Of a stretch of 64,000 nucleotides of DNA, positions 4,287 to 49,716 are shown piece after piece. The stretch covers positions 124,001 to 188,000 of the forward strand of contig NZ_LFLU01000005.1 in assembly GCF_001189965.1 (NCBI RefSeq), given 5' to 3'. This DNA is from Herbaspirillum rhizosphaerae. Its GTDB lineage: Bacteria > Pseudomonadota > Gammaproteobacteria > Burkholderiales > Burkholderiaceae_D. Under the pieces are notes generated by a model that saw nothing but the letters and a program-made list of their open reading frames with translations, was not told the DNA's origin and did no database searches. A program made the translations under genes and the position numbers. Position 1 is the first letter of the stretch; the number at the start of each line of letters is the position of its first letter.

Positions 4287-5315
4287 ATGGCGACTGTGAA
4301 AATGGACATGGATGCGGTGAAACTGGCCGCACGCAAGCTCGAAGCGGGCAAGCTGGTGGCGTTTCCTACCGAGACCGTCTACGGTCTCGGCGGCGACGCC
4401 GAAAATGCCGCGGCGATTGCCGATATCTATGCCGCCAAAGGCCGGCCTGCCAATCATCCCGTCATCGTCCACGTTGCGCCGGAAGCCGATATTTCCTATT
4501 GGGCTGCCGAGGTGCCTGCCGAAGCGCAGGCATTGATTGCAGCTTTCTGGCCGGGCCCGTTGACGCTGATCCTCAAGCGCGCTGCCCATGTTCCTGCCGC
4601 AGCTTCAGGCGGGCAGGACTCCATCGGCGTGCGTTGCCCGTCGCATCCTGTCGCACAAGCTTTGCTGCGTGAATTCAAGGGCGGCAAAGGCGGTGTTGCA
4701 GGACCATCGGCCAACAAGTTCGGCCACGTCAGCCCGACGACTGCGGAGCATGTGCGGGATGAGTTCGGCAGCGACGCCGCTAGTCTTGTGGATTACGTGC
4801 TGGATGGCGGTGCCAGTGAAGTCGGCATCGAATCGACGATTGTCGATCTGTCGCGTGTGAGCACGCACGGTGCGGTGCTGTTGCGGCCGGGACAGATCAG
4901 CGTTGATCAGATTACCGCGGTGCTGGGCGTAGCGCCGGGTTTACCGGATGCCGCCGCGCCACGCGCATCAGGTACGCTCGATGCGCACTATGCGCCGCAC
5001 ACGCCGGTCGCGCAGGTCCCGGCAGAACAACTGGCCGAGACAATCAAGAAACTTACCGAACGCGATTACAAGGTTGCGGTGATCCATCGCACCGCAGAAC
5101 TCACGTTTTCTCATGCATCCTTTGCCATGTCTCAGGATGCGGATCGCTATGCGCACGACTTGTATGCTGCGCTGCGAGATATGGACCATCAGCATGCCGA
5201 CGTCATCCTGGTAGAGGCCACTCCGGCCACTCCGGCATGGCAAGGCATCAACGATCGCCTGCGTCGCGCCGCGTTTGACTCCACCGGAATCCTTTCCCGT
5301 TTGCTCCCGACCTGA
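4287..5315 (+). CDS. tsaC: L-threonylcarbamoyladenylate synthase (TsaC/Sua5 type)
   Basis: A 342-aa protein with an N-terminal YrdC domain (about residues 10-200; FPTETVYGLGGDA, KGRPANHP, GVRCPSHP) and a C-terminal Sua5 domain (about 205-340). It makes threonylcarbamoyl-AMP from threonine, bicarbonate and ATP, the donor for t6A at position 37 of ANN-decoding tRNAs. The two-domain length marks it as Sua5-like rather than the short E. coli TsaC. It starts 15 bp after purK and is probably the last gene of the purine operon. Confidence 0.93.
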   Translation: MATVKMDMDAVKLAARKLEAGKLVAFPTETVYGLGGDAENAAAIADIYAAKGRPANHPVIVHVAPEADISYWAAEVPAEAQALIAAFWPGPLTLILKRAAHVPAAASGGQDSIGVRCPSHPVAQALLREFKGGKGGVAGPSANKFGHVSPTTAEHVRDEFGSDAASLVDYVLDGGASEVGIESTIVDLSRVSTHGAVLLRPGQISVDQITAVLGVAPGLPDAAAPRASGTLDAHYAPHTPVAQVPAEQLAETIKKLTERDYKVAVIHRTAELTFSHASFAMSQDADRYAHDLYAALRDMDHQHADVILVEATPATPAWQGINDRLRRAAFDSTGILSRLLPT

Positions 5316-7762: not shown

Positions 7763-8974
7763 TCAAGCCTTTGCATCGTAGATGTAGCGGCGCGATTGCG
7801 GCAAGACGTCGGCGTGACGATTGGATTTGCCGCAGATGACCTGATACAGCGAAATCCAGTCCTGGTTGAAACCGTGCGAGCTGCCGGCGAGATACACGCG
7901 CCAGATACGATAGCGCTTCTCGTCGGTGATCTTGCGAATCTCATCCGCCTTGGCTTCAAAATTGTCAGCCCAGATGGCACAGGTCTTGGCGTAGTGCTTG
8001 CGCAGGTTTTCGACGTCGAAGGCTTCCAGTCCGCCTTGCTGCATGGCTTTCAGCACCAGGCTGATGTGCGGCAGTTCACCGGCGGGGAAAACGTATTTGT
8101 CGATGAATTCGCCGCCGCCATAGGGCGATTCGCCGTTTTCAATATCGGTCGTGGTGATGCCGTGATTCATCGCCAGTCCGTCGTCAGCGAGCAGTGCGTT
8201 GATGCGTGAGAAGTACATCGGCAGATTTTTCAGACCGACGTGTTCGAACATGCCGACGCTGGTGATGCGGTCGAAGGTGCCGGTGATGTCGCGGTAGTCC
8301 TGCAAGCGGATTTCGATACGGTCGCTCAGACCGGCTTTCTCGACGCGCTCCTTGGCTAGTGCGTACTGATTTTCCGACAGCGTGATGCCTACGCATTTGG
8401 CGCCGAATTTCTGCGCCGCACGCAGCACCAGTGCTCCCCAGCCGCAACCGATGTCGAGCAGCCTGTCGCCTGGGCGGACCTGGATCTTGGTGAGGATGTG
8501 ATCGATCTTCTTGATCTGGGCCGTGGCGAGGTCTTCGTCGCCGGTTTCAAAATAGGCACAGGAATAGACCATGTTCTCGTCGAGGAACAACTTGTAGAAG
8601 TCGTTGGAGACGTCGTAGTGATAGCGGATCGCCTCCGCATCTTTTTCCTTGCTGTGGCGGATGGAGCGGGCGATGCGCGCCAGCTTGCCTTCCGCCTTCA
8701 GGGTCTTGGCCGCCAGGGTGTTGGCGACGCTGATGATGCTGGCTACCGGACCGTCGACGTCAATCTTGCCTTCGACGTAGGCTTCGCCGAGATTGGACAG
8801 CGATGGCTGGAACAGGTAAGTCAGGGCCGATACATGAGGAACACGCAAGGTGACCTGTGGCGCACCGTCGCTGAAGTCGAACTGTCGGCCGTTCCACAGT
8901 TCGAGGCGCAACGGCAACGCCGTTGCGTGACGGATTTCCTCTACCCAAGCTGCGAGCTTCTTTTCCCAAAACAC
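7763..8974 (-). CDS. cfa: Cyclopropane-fatty-acyl-phospholipid synthase
   Basis: A 403-aa SAM-dependent methyltransferase that adds a methylene bridge across cis double bonds of membrane phospholipid acyl chains, usually in stationary phase or under acid stress. LLDIGCGWGALV near residue 171 is the SAM-binding motif; VGMFEHVGLKN and MNHGITT follow as in the family. The start is GTG at 8974 with GGAGG about 8 nt upstream. It stands 58 bp downstream of pdxH on the same strand. Confidence 0.94.
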   Translation of the reverse strand: MFWEKKLAAWVEEIRHATALPLRLELWNGRQFDFSDGAPQVTLRVPHVSALTYLFQPSLSNLGEAYVEGKIDVDGPVASIISVANTLAAKTLKAEGKLARIARSIRHSKEKDAEAIRYHYDVSNDFYKLFLDENMVYSCAYFETGDEDLATAQIKKIDHILTKIQVRPGDRLLDIGCGWGALVLRAAQKFGAKCVGITLSENQYALAKERVEKAGLSDRIEIRLQDYRDITGTFDRITSVGMFEHVGLKNLPMYFSRINALLADDGLAMNHGITTTDIENGESPYGGGEFIDKYVFPAGELPHISLVLKAMQQGGLEAFDVENLRKHYAKTCAIWADNFEAKADEIRKITDEKRYRIWRVYLAGSSHGFNQDWISLYQVICGKSNRHADVLPQSRRYIYDAKA

Positions 8975-47453: not shown

Positions 47454-47489
47454 GACATGTCCGCAGCATGCGCATGCCGCGGACATGTC
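47454..47489. repeat. 36-bp near-perfect palindrome
   Basis: Two 18-bp arms, GACATGTCCGCAGCATGC and GCATGCCGCGGACATGTC, meet without a spacer and differ at one pair. It lies 14 bp after the end of the MXKDX-repeat gene (leftward), so it probably works as that operon's terminator stem, although no clear T-run follows. Confidence 0.85.
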
Positions 47490-47503: not shown

Positions 47504-47755
47504 TTATTTCTTCATTTCATCCTTGGCCATGCCGTCCTTCGCCATGCCGTCTTTGGCCATGGAGTCCTTGCTCATGGAATCTTTCTTCATGTGTTTCTTT
47601 TTCATGCCGTCTTTCTTCATGCTGTCCTTGGACATGGAATCCTTGGACATGGAATCCTTGGACATGTCGTCCTTGGCCATGGTGTCGGCAGCGTAGGCGC
47701 CCGAAACGGCAGCCATCATCAGACAGGCGAACAGCGTAGAGAGTGCTTTTTTCAT
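47504..47755 (-). CDS. Secreted Met-rich MXKDX pentapeptide-repeat protein (MrpX-like)
   Basis: An 83-aa precursor. The signal peptide (residues 1-22, cut after AYA) is followed by an almost pure tandem array of five-residue units of the form M-S/A/K-K-D-S/G, about eleven in all, encoded by 15-bp DNA repeats; about one residue in five of the mature protein is Met and most others are Lys or Asp. This is the known penta-MXKDX family. A related Met-rich periplasmic peptide in Azospira (MrpX) soaks up hypochlorite by Met oxidation and is re-reduced by a YedY-type enzyme. Here such an enzyme gene lies 74 bp upstream. AGGAGA precedes the ATG. Confidence 0.85.
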   Translation of the reverse strand: MKKALSTLFACLMMAAVSGAYAADTMAKDDMSKDSMSKDSMSKDSMKKDGMKKKHMKKDSMSKDSMAKDGMAKDGMAKDEMKK

Positions 47756-47829
47756 GTGAATCTCCTAGAAATTAAATTGGCAAAAAAGTGGCAAAAGCGC
47801 CATGAATCCGACAAAGACTTAGCAGCTTG

Positions 47830-48615
47830 CTAAGCACCGCCGAACCAGTTGTACCCCTGGTCTTCCCAGTAACCGCCGGGGTAAGTGTTGGTTACTTCGA
47901 TTGAAGCAATATGCTTCGGATTCTTGTAGCCCAGCTTGGTGGGCATGCGCAGCTTCATCGGGAAGCCGTACTTCGGCGGCAGGATCTCGCCGTCGTAGGT
48001 CAGCGTCAGTTGCGTTTGTGCGTGCAGTGCGGTCGGCATGTCGATGCTGGTGTAGTAGTCGTCGGCGCAGCGGAAGGCGATGTACTTCGCGCTCATGTCG
48101 GCGCCGATGTGCTTCAGGAAGCCGGCAAACGGCACGCCGCCCCAGCGGCCGATGGCGCTCCAGCCTTCCACGCAGATGTGGCGCGTGATCTGCTCCACCT
48201 GCGGCAAGCGGCGCAGCTCCGGCAGCGTCCACGACTTCTTGTTGCTGACCAGTCCCTTGATCTCCAGGCGGTAGTCGTCGCCGTCGACTTCGGTGATTTC
48301 GTCTTCGCCATAAAACGCATTGAACGGAAACGGCCGTGTGATCATCGACGCCGGGTAAGTCGGCGCCATCAGGTTGGGATCGAACAGCCAGCCCTGCACG
48401 CCGTCGTTCATGCGCGAGATTTTGGTGAGCATGCGATTGACCGATTCGTTGTCGGTGATTTCGCAGCCGGTCAGCAGCGACAAGCCGCCCAGCGTCAGCG
48501 CGCGCTTGCCGAACAGCCGGCGCGAGGGCATGGCCAGTTCCAGTTCGCGGCGCGCATCCTTGATGATGAGTTCGCTGTCCAGCGCGGACGGCAGACGATT
48601 GGGTTTTTTGATCAT
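47830..48615 (-). CDS. Molybdopterin-dependent oxidoreductase, MsrP/YedY-like
   Basis: A 261-aa sulfite-oxidase-fold enzyme. SRRLFGK at residues 31-37 is a twin-arginine export motif, followed by a hydrophobic stretch and a lipobox-like LLTGC (Cys51), so the product is probably exported folded and may be lipid-anchored. Cys148 in RHICVEGWSAIGRWGG is the expected molybdenum ligand, and YGFPMKLRMPTKLGYKNPKH is typical of the C-terminal region. MsrP reduces methionine sulfoxide in periplasmic proteins. It is shorter than E. coli MsrP (~334) and closer to the YedY1 type. The Met-rich neighbour is a likely substrate; the cytochrome b gene 16 bp upstream is the likely electron donor. Confidence 0.88.
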   Translation of the reverse strand: MIKKPNRLPSALDSELIIKDARRELELAMPSRRLFGKRALTLGGLSLLTGCEITDNESVNRMLTKISRMNDGVQGWLFDPNLMAPTYPASMITRPFPFNAFYGEDEITEVDGDDYRLEIKGLVSNKKSWTLPELRRLPQVEQITRHICVEGWSAIGRWGGVPFAGFLKHIGADMSAKYIAFRCADDYYTSIDMPTALHAQTQLTLTYDGEILPPKYGFPMKLRMPTKLGYKNPKHIASIEVTNTYPGGYWEDQGYNWFGGA

Positions 48616-48631
48616 GATGTCCTTCGCTTTC

Positions 48632-49261
48632 TCAACGGCCGCGCAGCATGGCGAGCAAGGTGCGCGGCACCAGCGCCACCATCACGATATGCACGACGAT
48701 GAACAGCACCAGAAAAGTCATCGCGAAAAAGTGCACGATGCGCGCATTGTCAAAACCGCCCATCAGGTCGCGCAGCAAGGGCAGTTGCACCGACTTCCAG
48801 ACCGCCAGGCCGGAGATCACGATCAGCACGAGATCGGCGATGACCGAGAGGTAAGCCAGCTTTTGCACAGCGTTGTAATGATCCAGCGATGCATGCTGCA
48901 GCTTGCCTTTCAGGGCTTGCACGAAGTCATGCAAAATTTCTTTCGGATGCAGCGGGAAGAATTTGCGCTGCGCGCGTCCGGTCAACAGATTGAGCAGAAG
49001 ATAAATGACGCCATTGATCGCCAGCAGCCACATCGCAGCAAAGTGCCATTGCAGTGCGCCGCCCAGCCAGCCGCCCAGCGTCCATTCTTTCGGAAAGACG
49101 AAGGGGAAAATCGGCGAGGCGTTATAGATGCGCCAGCCGCTGGCAATCATGATCACCACGGAGAGGGCATTGATCCAGTGCGTCACGCGCAGCCACAAAG
49201 GATGAACCGTGGCGTGCGGCGCTGCTGGTGTGGTCGGCAAGACCGATAGGGAAGCTTTCAC
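48632..49261 (-). CDS. Membrane cytochrome b (electron donor of the MsrP-like enzyme)
   Basis: A 209-aa protein with four membrane spans (about residues 28-48, 74-94, 130-152 and 178-202) of the Ni/Fe-hydrogenase-type b-cytochrome family. His residues in LRVTHWINALS, GALQWHFAAMW, RIVHFFAMTF and LFIVVHIVMVAL are likely heme ligands. It would pass electrons from the quinone pool to the exported molybdoenzyme downstream. It differs from MsrQ/YedZ of E. coli. GTG 49261 has AGGAG 6-7 nt upstream; the ATG at 49303 lacks one. First gene of the operon cytochrome b - MsrP-like - MXKDX. Confidence 0.87.
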   Translation of the reverse strand: MKASLSVLPTTPAAPHATVHPLWLRVTHWINALSVVIMIASGWRIYNASPIFPFVFPKEWTLGGWLGGALQWHFAAMWLLAINGVIYLLLNLLTGRAQRKFFPLHPKEILHDFVQALKGKLQHASLDHYNAVQKLAYLSVIADLVLIVISGLAVWKSVQLPLLRDLMGGFDNARIVHFFAMTFLVLFIVVHIVMVALVPRTLLAMLRGR

Positions 49262-49339
49262 AATCGTCTCCTGAGTACATCGTGCAATGCAAAACGTCTT
49301 CAATCCGATTCATGCGAGGCGTTTTGCGATTCTATGCCC

Positions 49340-49370
49340 CTTGGTCGCAGCGACCCGGCGATTTCTTACA
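49340..49370 (-). promoter_or_regulatory. ECF-sigma-like promoter for the cytochrome b operon
   Basis: On the minus strand TGTAAG (49365-49370), 17 bp, then CGAC (49344-49347) within CGACCAAG. The same pair occurs divergently upstream of the zinc-finger gene. The form (GTAA-type -35, CGAC -10, 16-17 bp) fits extracytoplasmic-function sigma factors. It lies about 80 bp before the start codon. Confidence 0.45.
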
Positions 49371-49448
49371 CAAGGTAAGAAAAAGAGTGAAAAGCGGAAC
49401 ACTATTTTGCAAACGCCGAAGAATTCGATTAAAAACCGGTCAGCAAAA

Positions 49449-49474
49449 TGTAAGAATTCAAGGAGCTCGCCGAC
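49449..49474 (+). promoter_or_regulatory. ECF-sigma-like promoter for the zinc-finger gene
   Basis: TGTAAG at 49449-49454, 16 bp, CGAC at 49471-49474 within CGACTAAG. It shares TGTAAGAA.TC and CGAC.AAG with the divergent site at 49340-49370, and lies about 68 bp before ATG 49543. Confidence 0.45.
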
Positions 49475-49542
49475 TAAGCGATATGGCACCGGAGAGTCGA
49501 GGCATGGCGCGTCATTTACAATGACGTCACAGGAGCAATCAT

Positions 49543-49716
49543 ATGAAATGCAAGGAAGCACACCGCGTCTTGTGCGAAGCGCAAGACAACAAACTGTCGT
49601 TTGCACGCCGGCTGGCATTGCGCTGGCATCTGGCCATTTGCGACCATTGCACGCGTTTCGGCCGGCAGTTGGGATTTTTGCGGACAGCGGTCAGACGCTA
49701 TCGCGATGGGGAATAA
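49543..49716 (+). CDS. 57-aa zinc-finger (zf-HC2/anti-sigma-like) small protein
   Basis: A short gene with a strong ribosome site (AGGAG, 7 nt before the ATG). The protein starts MKCKEAHRVLCEAQDNKLSF and contains WHLAICDHCTRF: His29, Cys33 and Cys36 form the H-x3-C-x2-C zinc motif of zinc-binding anti-sigma factors, with Cys3 and Cys11 as possible further ligands. It has no membrane span, so it would be a soluble, possibly redox-sensitive anti-sigma factor. No sigma factor gene is next to it. It diverges from the cytochrome b/MsrP-like/MXKDX operon and shares its promoter motif, so it probably belongs to that response. Confidence 0.78.
   Translation: MKCKEAHRVLCEAQDNKLSFARRLALRWHLAICDHCTRFGRQLGFLRTAVRRYRDGE

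Follow-up and report, generated by a model that had tools for sequence, protein, structure and literature searches.

A putative periplasmic methionine sink in Herbaspirillum rhizosphaerae and its possible control by a distantly encoded ECF sigma factor

Genes and genomic site of the locus

The window analysed here, a 64,000-nucleotide stretch of H. rhizosphaerae (contig NZ_LFLU01000005.1, positions 124,001 to 188,000; G000:C45:124001-188000 in our numbering), holds a leftward operon for a membrane cytochrome b, a molybdoenzyme with a signal for twin-arginine translocation (Tat) and a secreted methionine-rich repeat peptide, together with a divergent zinc-finger gene; the locus is considered here as a candidate defence against reactive chlorine. 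A first-pass annotation made from the window alone had described these four genes, all of which are indeed present where it put them; not included in it were the lipobox of the enzyme, two promoters and partner genes located outside the window. The features are as follows, ECF standing for extracytoplasmic function and ZAS for zinc-binding anti-sigma:

47454..47489 (-): strong hairpin 14 bases past the stop codon of the peptide gene (RNA fold)
47504..47755 (-): secreted Met-rich repeat peptide of the MXKDX (MrpX-like) kind, 83 amino acids, TIGR02953
47830..48615 (-): YedY-like molybdoenzyme, 261 amino acids, PF00174, predicted Tat lipoprotein, Mo-ligand Cys148
48632..49261 (-): membrane cytochrome b, PF01292, GTG start
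49342..49370 (-): ECF-type promoter TGTAAGAA-N15-CGACCA facing the operon, a pattern match kept in the genus
49449..49476 (+): ECF-type promoter TGTAAGAA-N14-CGACTA facing the anti-sigma gene, a pattern match kept in the genus
49543..49716 (+): ZAS-type zinc-finger anti-sigma of the MseR/HrsE kind, 57 amino acids, no sigma gene adjoining, NF052368 and PF13490

The operon lies between corC-lnt and ybeY-phoH-miaB, as the first-pass annotation had correctly noted, and the site is identical in eight species of the genus including that of the window: eight of the 34 species have the arrangement miaB-phoH-ybeY / ZAS gene, cytochrome, enzyme, peptide / corC-lnt, with the peptide gene present in 8/8, and part of the genus has conserved this position as the insertion site. 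Three other species have a version of the locus with SigF/NrsF.

The peptide matches the NCBIfam model TIGR02953 with 69.1 bits (cut-off 41, E 2.4e-19) and is the sole match to this model in the whole genome (E up to 1). Once the signal peptide is removed, 12 of its 61 residues are methionines and all 11 Met-Met intervals are exactly 5, while the Lys and Asp codons of the repeat units differ synonymously, as expected for a repeat maintained at the protein level and not for fresh DNA copies. The window locus thus has both the secreted Met-rich repeat peptide and, in the same operon, the YedY-type Mo enzyme with a membrane cytochrome b by which an oxidant sink of the MrpX/YedY1-YedZ1 type is recognised. 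The hairpin behind the peptide gene (-35.5 kcal/mol, z -6.7, a 16-bp stem without a U run) is perhaps the 3' end of the operon transcript.

Membership of the enzyme in PF00174 is clear (E 1.4e-30), and its Cys148, within RHICVEGWS, aligns with the Cys of MsrP and is invariant in 36 rows. It shares with the MsrP/MsrQ system of the E. coli type the sulfite-oxidase fold, the Cys ligand and a membrane haem partner, and differs from it in being a predicted lipoprotein under the MsrP cut-off whose cytochrome belongs to PF01292 and not to MsrQ. Identity with E. coli-type MsrP (group 1A) was ruled out by the score against the MsrP equivalog NF003767, 76.5 bits where 207 are required. The YedY-like group 1B of the sulfite oxidase family is described as having a smaller (30 kDa) Mo subunit and a different cytochrome partner (PMC7759655), and both are found in the 261-residue enzyme with its PF01292 partner. 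A lipobox, LTGC, stands behind the Tat RR motif, and because all 34 aligned family members have a lipobox behind the Tat region (RRxF in 31/34) lipidation after Tat export is predicted for the enzyme. In 7/34 rows the Cys of the lipobox is followed by Asp, and all seven were scored as peptide-less. The AlphaFold model of the enzyme has a predicted local distance difference test score (pLDDT) of 80.4 (79-98 by blocks over residues 81-250), with MsrP/YedY (1xdy, 1xdq) as the best solved folds, followed by sulfite dehydrogenases, at TM-scores of only ~0.5, and the median ratio of nonsynonymous to synonymous substitution rates (dN/dS) is 0.109 across the eight species. Viral contigs contained no relative of the enzyme in a single-protein query.

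The cytochrome scores 90 bits against PF01292 (E 1.6e-25), its start having been judged by eye (GTG at 49261 with AGGAG ahead), and its invariant columns in 24 rows include His28, His73, His177 and His191. Its model (pLDDT 91.9) is closest to the formate dehydrogenase-N gamma subunit (1kqf_C) and the hydrogenase-1 cytochrome b, at Foldseek E values of only 2e-3 and 6e-3 with a probability of 1.0; the MsrQ model NF003831 is not among the families listed for it (E up to 1). We infer that it is the quinol-to-enzyme electron donor.

Three Mo-type systems of this kind are found in the genome: that of the window, a second enzyme/cytochrome paralogue without a peptide (G000:C55:153249-153959; L036, L245) and a classical set (L055, G000:C23:289479-301946) with MsrP at 485 bits, MsrQ at 185 (cut-off 130) and MsrA at 167 (cut-off 108), adjoined by a two-component pair named from sequence alone. 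The second paralogue has relatives at L038, L040, L046, L069 and L256-L260, and its type adjoins in several genomes a conserved, secreted-looking protein, C6, which has no Pfam match over the cut-off; within the genus five further loci that were opened, in four genomes, carry the C6 gene and no peptide.

Relatives of the operon and their company

A survey of 300 Burkholderiales genomes found some relative of the enzyme (E 1e-10) in 178, and 35 places, the window included, hold full-length members of the family (at least 57% identity), the partial matches in G052 and G081 being left out. The first-pass annotation had proposed comparing gene order across Burkholderiales, and the comparison agrees with its reading: a cytochrome, detected with profiles built from relatives of that in the window, adjoins the enzyme in 35/35 loci, and 18/35, the window counted among them, also have a peptide gene on the same strand no more than 1.5 kb away, with the cytochrome-enzyme-peptide order recurring among relatives. 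The peptide count depends on a regular expression and its threshold, peptides beyond contig ends being unscored, and at L045, L128 and L130 a peptide further upstream was scored as absent from the 1.5 kb (L045 is one of the remaining 17). A second tier comprises seven places at 36-40% identity, of which five were examined for their surroundings at first and two later; none of the five has the peptide beside it, and the other two are likewise without it.

The same comparison corrects another statement of the first-pass annotation, that the cytochrome differs from the described set, which is not established and is probably wrong, given the same-family cytochrome in every one of the 35 loci; a cytochrome of this family also stands beside the enzyme where SigF/NrsF is present, as published for Azospira (the Azospira cytochrome itself was not in the comparison). 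Among the best 80 named loci, which were kept for similarity and are therefore biased towards close relatives, the cytochrome adjoins in 79 (the exception, L115, starts at a contig end) and the peptide lies on the same strand within the same distance in 68; their genera include Achromobacter, Pseudomonas, Paraburkholderia, Cupriavidus, Massilia, Herminiimonas, Serratia and Buttiauxella, and no locus among these 80 is named Azospira.

A peptide over the TIGR02953 cut-off occurs in 24 of the 300 genomes, in 19 of them beside the enzyme and cytochrome (in G052, beside the partial enzyme match). The other five have MsrA and/or MsrB beside the peptide in three cases and SigF/NrsF in three: the peptide stands beside MsrB and SigF/NrsF at L201, beside SigF/NrsF at L202, beside DUF1223-MsrB-MsrA at L203, and at L205 beside none of Msr, SigF/NrsF and DUF1223. 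At L204 (G024:C6) it is clustered with MsrA, a DsbD/thioredoxin fusion, MsrB and SigF/NrsF, which amounts to the same idea in a thiol-fed form that dispenses with the Mo enzyme. MsrA, MsrB, NrsF, DUF1223 and the DsbD/thioredoxin fusion were named by Pfam on representatives. That the peptide occurs beside two unrelated kinds of methionine sulfoxide reductase is best explained if it is their shared substrate.

On a quick tree the peptide-bearing enzymes cluster, needing 14 changes where shuffles average 33.5; 52 of its 133 forks are open and it has long branches, so it was used for clustering alone. The near-duplicates L084, L112 and L128 were left out of it, and the label of its E. coli plasmid row was set by hand ahead of the check on the small protein of that set. 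This set, in the same order as in the window, is found on E. coli and Klebsiella plasmids, with an enzyme 62% identical and a small protein whose 38.8 bits fall just under the MXKDX cut-off of 41. At L306 (E. coli O25:H4 plasmid p18044_2) the cytochrome, enzyme and Met-rich small protein are accompanied by a two-component pair, and sets of this type at near identity occupy 74 plasmid places and no chromosomal one in 73 of 5426 E. coli genomes; Klebsiella plasmids also hold relatives of it.

A probable split sigma/anti-sigma pair and its promoters

The 57-residue zinc-finger protein matches PF13490 and the NCBIfam antisigmaE model NF052368 (63 bits, cut-off 50), and its residues Cys3 and His29-X3-Cys33-X2-Cys36 give it the HX3CX2C motif and N-terminal Cys of the ZAS proteins MseR and HrsE; for the meningococcal MseR a report describes Cys4 and the Cys residues of the ZAS motif as essential (PMC2893595). 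The gene is present in eight species with a median dN/dS of 0.074, indicating strong purifying selection, and by these two findings a decayed relic was ruled out. The genes for anti-sigma factors normally adjoin that of their own sigma. No sigma gene adjoins this one, unlike the usual MseR/HrsE arrangement, and the likely sigma is encoded on another contig:

G000:C1:102442-103008, outside the window: likely cognate ECF sigma, TIGR02943, 216 bits (cut-off 162)

The zinc finger is an anti-sigma of the MseR/HrsE type whose probable sigma is encoded elsewhere, which bears out the remark in the first-pass annotation that the regulator differs from the described set. SigF/NrsF, present beside some relatives, is not found beside the locus in any of the eight species that have it. 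The C1 sigma is the own-genome homologue, at 46% identity, of a sigma that adjoins the ZAS gene in other families: L042 and L059, from two other families, have the ECF sigma gene followed by the ZAS gene beside an operon of this kind, and these adjacent pairs show the same promoter pattern. Within the genus the sigma was found (E 1e-30) in exactly the 8/34 species with the locus (1/C(34,8) = 5.5e-8), with no ZAS match within ~1.5 kb of it in any of the eight genomes, and its gene is also under strong purifying selection (median dN/dS 0.088). In the G400 homologue (L268) one TGA was flagged inside the match, which may be either the natural end or a sign of a broken gene. A contig of 9 kb from a Comamonadaceae metagenome-assembled genome (L107) has a ZAS gene at 4729 with no sigma between gene and promoter match, followed by DUF1223, and a second promoter match at 8869 facing MsrA; this is perhaps an independent split arrangement.

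The promoter pattern has two matches in the window and none in 100 shuffles, both of them between the zinc-finger and cytochrome genes and facing outward. In a whole-genome search of 16 genomes of the genus (the eight with the locus and eight chosen by us from the 26 without), those with the locus gave 24 matches against 10 for the backward control and the others none against nine. Nineteen of the 24 are TGTAAGAA with a spacing of 14 or 15, of which 15 lie between the ZAS gene and the operon and four before a gene for chlorite dismutase; in G413 the ZAS side has no exact match and carries TGTAAGAA-N14-CGACAA instead. The remaining five are TGTAAGGA-N13 (G000, G404 twice, G411 and G416), away from both the locus and chlorite dismutase; none was counted as a site, the two that were opened (L294 and L298) having no gene start close behind. 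The meningococcal sigma-E/MseR consensus is given as GTMAGBWTT-N12-13-CGTCTAAH (PMC2893595), with which our pattern shares the GTAAG core and, counted alike, the spacing, the sixth base of the -35 element being different and the -10 element differing by one base (CGACTAA) or two (CGACCAA).

Among the relatives the regulators and the upstream patterns go together. GTAAC[CG]-N14-18-CG[AT]A[ACT] was found upstream in 25/29 SigF/NrsF loci, in 0/75 with neither regulator and in 0/3 ZAS loci, and TGTAAG[AG][AG]-N12-17-CGAC[CT]A in 3/3 ZAS loci, 4/75 with neither regulator and 1/29 SigF/NrsF loci; these counts cover either strand and stretches of more than 700 bases, the window, L055 and the near-duplicates named above being left out. 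A partial scan of the upstream genes of six loci with neither regulator revealed response regulators in L078 (Achromobacter) and L104 (Paralcaligenes), kinases in these two and in L091 (Serratia), other genes in L099 and L083 and nothing in L133, while on Rahnella and E. coli plasmids a two-component pair accompanies the set.

The dismutase gene behind the shared promoter is as follows:

G000:C9:97582-98136 (-): short-type chlorite dismutase P0007, full-length kin of solved short enzymes

By its kinship over the full length with solved short chlorite dismutases (9gtj, E 1.7e-61; 3qpi, 1.8e-58; 5k8z, 2.6e-54) P0007 is classed as an enzyme of this type. Seven of the 34 species have a chlorite dismutase (E 1e-10), and in the four that also have the sigma the promoter stands before the dismutase gene in 4/4 (stop codons flagged in two of these four genes are the natural end). 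Of the three without the sigma, G399 and G405 gave no match in the genome-wide pattern search and G429 lay outside it. One survey describes chlorite dismutase genes as routinely found with Met-sulfoxide reductase systems (PMC9751292). A chlorite dismutase search in the family of G134 (presumed Rhodocyclaceae, the nearest match being an Azonexus locus), made in order to find Azospira, was negative in all six genomes; in its order 14/399 genomes gave a match, 13 of them over the cut-off. The 17-20 kb examined around the two long chlorite dismutases (L199, L200) contain neither the peptide nor a member of this enzyme family.

Proposed mechanism and alternatives

The locus is probably a periplasmic methionine-cycling oxidant sink under reactive-chlorine control, exerted by a remote ECF sigma and its ZAS anti-sigma. 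The PF01292 cytochrome b would hand electrons from quinol to the molybdoenzyme, and this predicted Tat lipoprotein, tethered to the membrane, would reduce methionine sulfoxide; its preferred substrate would be the secreted MXKDX peptide, a dense and expendable Met array that would absorb hypochlorite-type oxidants and be recharged by the enzyme. The C1 ECF sigma would bind to and be restrained by the ZAS anti-sigma encoded beside the operon until oxidation of the zinc centre frees it, whereupon it may drive transcription of the operon, of its own inhibitor and, in 4/8 species, of chlorite dismutase. Feedback would be negative, since the promoter stands before the inhibitor gene and, as far as the motif shows, not before the sigma gene, and we lean slightly towards the view that the trans-split pair is a negative-feedback switch joining the periplasmic Met sink and chlorite dismutase in one regulon. 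What supports this proposal was read from sequence: gene content, export and lipidation signals, conservation, the sharing of promoters and the co-occurrence of sigma and locus.

The central idea of the first-pass annotation, that the locus is a relative of Azospira MrpX/YedY1Z1, has good support from domain content and gene order and from the genes found beside relatives, among them MsrA/MsrB of the periplasmic type and SigF/NrsF. In Azospira suillum MrpX/YedY1-YedZ1 is described as a hypochlorite detoxification system under SigF/NrsF (PMC4623255, PMC5748585, PMC8315932); compared by description and not by sequence, it also groups a Met-rich peptide with a YedY-type enzyme and YedZ as one unit, and differs in its regulators, our locus having the ZAS anti-sigma with a remote sigma and no SigF/NrsF. 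Brucella BcrXQP, reported to be induced by hypochlorous acid (HOCl) and to contribute to HOCl resistance under BcrS/AbcS control, likewise combines an MXKDX peptide and an Msr-type pair with an ECF sigma/anti-sigma, and differs in that the sigma is of the ECF16 group, the adjoining anti-sigma is a six-helix membrane protein and the promoter is of the TGTAAC and GCGAAA type (PMC8315932). The C3566-C3568 set of uropathogenic E. coli (OrhK/OrhR) has the cytochrome b, Mo enzyme and Met-rich peptide in identical order and is under two-component control, C3567 having been compared by description and not by sequence (PMC8550376).

On the side of the regulators, Haemophilus RpoE2/HrsE, which controls an HOCl-inducible msrAB (PMC7907618), and Neisseria sigma-E/MseR, whose regulon includes msrA/msrB (PMC2893595, PMC3240639), have the same small cytoplasmic ZAS anti-sigma and a Met-sulfoxide reductase as a main target, Neisseria also sharing with the window the -35 core and spacing of the promoter (PMC2893595). 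As these two systems are described, however, the anti-sigma gene adjoins that of the sigma and a thiol-type MsrAB is the target, whereas in H. rhizosphaerae the two genes are apart and the targets would be the operon of the Mo enzyme and chlorite dismutase. Three controls on the same effector module (SigF/NrsF, ZAS sigma and two-component) suggest that their common signal is reactive chlorine or something closely related.

A number of observations weigh against the methionine sink or its proposed control. In 17 of the 35 loci with enzyme and cytochrome the same strand holds no peptide gene within 1.5 kb, so that the enzyme must act on something else there. Upstream of the sigma gene the promoter pattern, whether strict or loosened, had no match in any of the eight genomes, four of the eight locus-bearing species have no chlorite dismutase, and L037, the nearest relative outside the genus, occupies the same insertion site without a zinc finger or a promoter match. 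The eight species may be one clade, so 8/8 against 0/26 does not amount to eight independent events. As for published relatives, the E. coli one is reported to protect against peroxide-type rather than chlorine oxidants (PMC8550376), the Haemophilus rpoE2 mutant is described as not more HOCl-sensitive in vitro (PMC7907618), and meningococcal msrA/msrB transcription as unchanged by peroxide, diamide and singlet oxygen (PMC2893595).

The enzyme could instead serve general envelope repair, mending many periplasmic proteins as E. coli MsrP does, with the peptide playing a minor, bystander part or serving as a decoy without specific recycling. The peptide-less loci fit this explanation, as do the peptide-less paralogue in the same genome (L036) and the fold of the enzyme, closest to that of MsrP, which is described as a repair enzyme for periplasmic proteins (PMC7759655). 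We nevertheless regard it as unlikely, given the clustering of the peptide-bearing enzymes on the tree, the separate classical MsrP-MsrQ-MsrA set in the genome and the MsrA and/or MsrB neighbours of three of the five peptide genes away from the enzyme, which point to the peptide as a Met-sulfoxide substrate.

With respect to control, the promoters might belong to another ECF sigma, the C1 sigma having no relation to the 57-residue zinc finger and co-occurring with it through clade history. Sigma and zinc finger do lie on different contigs, the sigma gene has no match to the promoter, the genome has five weaker homologues of the query sigma, and the eight species may be one clade; against this stand the homologous pair that two other families carry side by side at this operon together with the promoter pattern, the exact co-occurrence of sigma and locus across 34 genomes and a motif whose -35 core and spacing agree with those of the published sigma-E/MseR consensus, which make this explanation rather improbable. 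Met-rich motifs also bind Cu(I), and the peptide might hold copper(I) or another soft metal in the periplasm while the enzyme keeps its Met ligands reduced, Caulobacter sigma-F being reported to respond to heavy metals (PMC3511200), yet this is very improbable, since the named neighbours are MsrA, MsrB, DUF1223, SigF/NrsF and the ZAS sigma pair, with no copper gene among the named recurrent ones (most singleton neighbours are unannotated), and the shared promoter stands before chlorite dismutase.

The effector module of the proposed methionine sink is thus already known, and what is new is the likely trans-split ZAS pair and the inclusion of the dismutase among the genes behind the shared promoter; a search of the open-licence literature found no paper that links chlorite dismutase with an ECF sigma and Met-sulfoxide. 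The predicted Tat-lipoprotein nature of the whole enzyme family sets it apart from MsrP and would constrain how the enzyme meets its cytochrome and substrates. With its likely partner encoded elsewhere, a conserved orphan anti-sigma provides a small regulon suited to testing cause and target. If the promoter link between sink, Mo reductase and chlorite dismutase is true, bacteria that do not respire perchlorate would meet chlorite and hypochlorite often enough to maintain a dedicated response.

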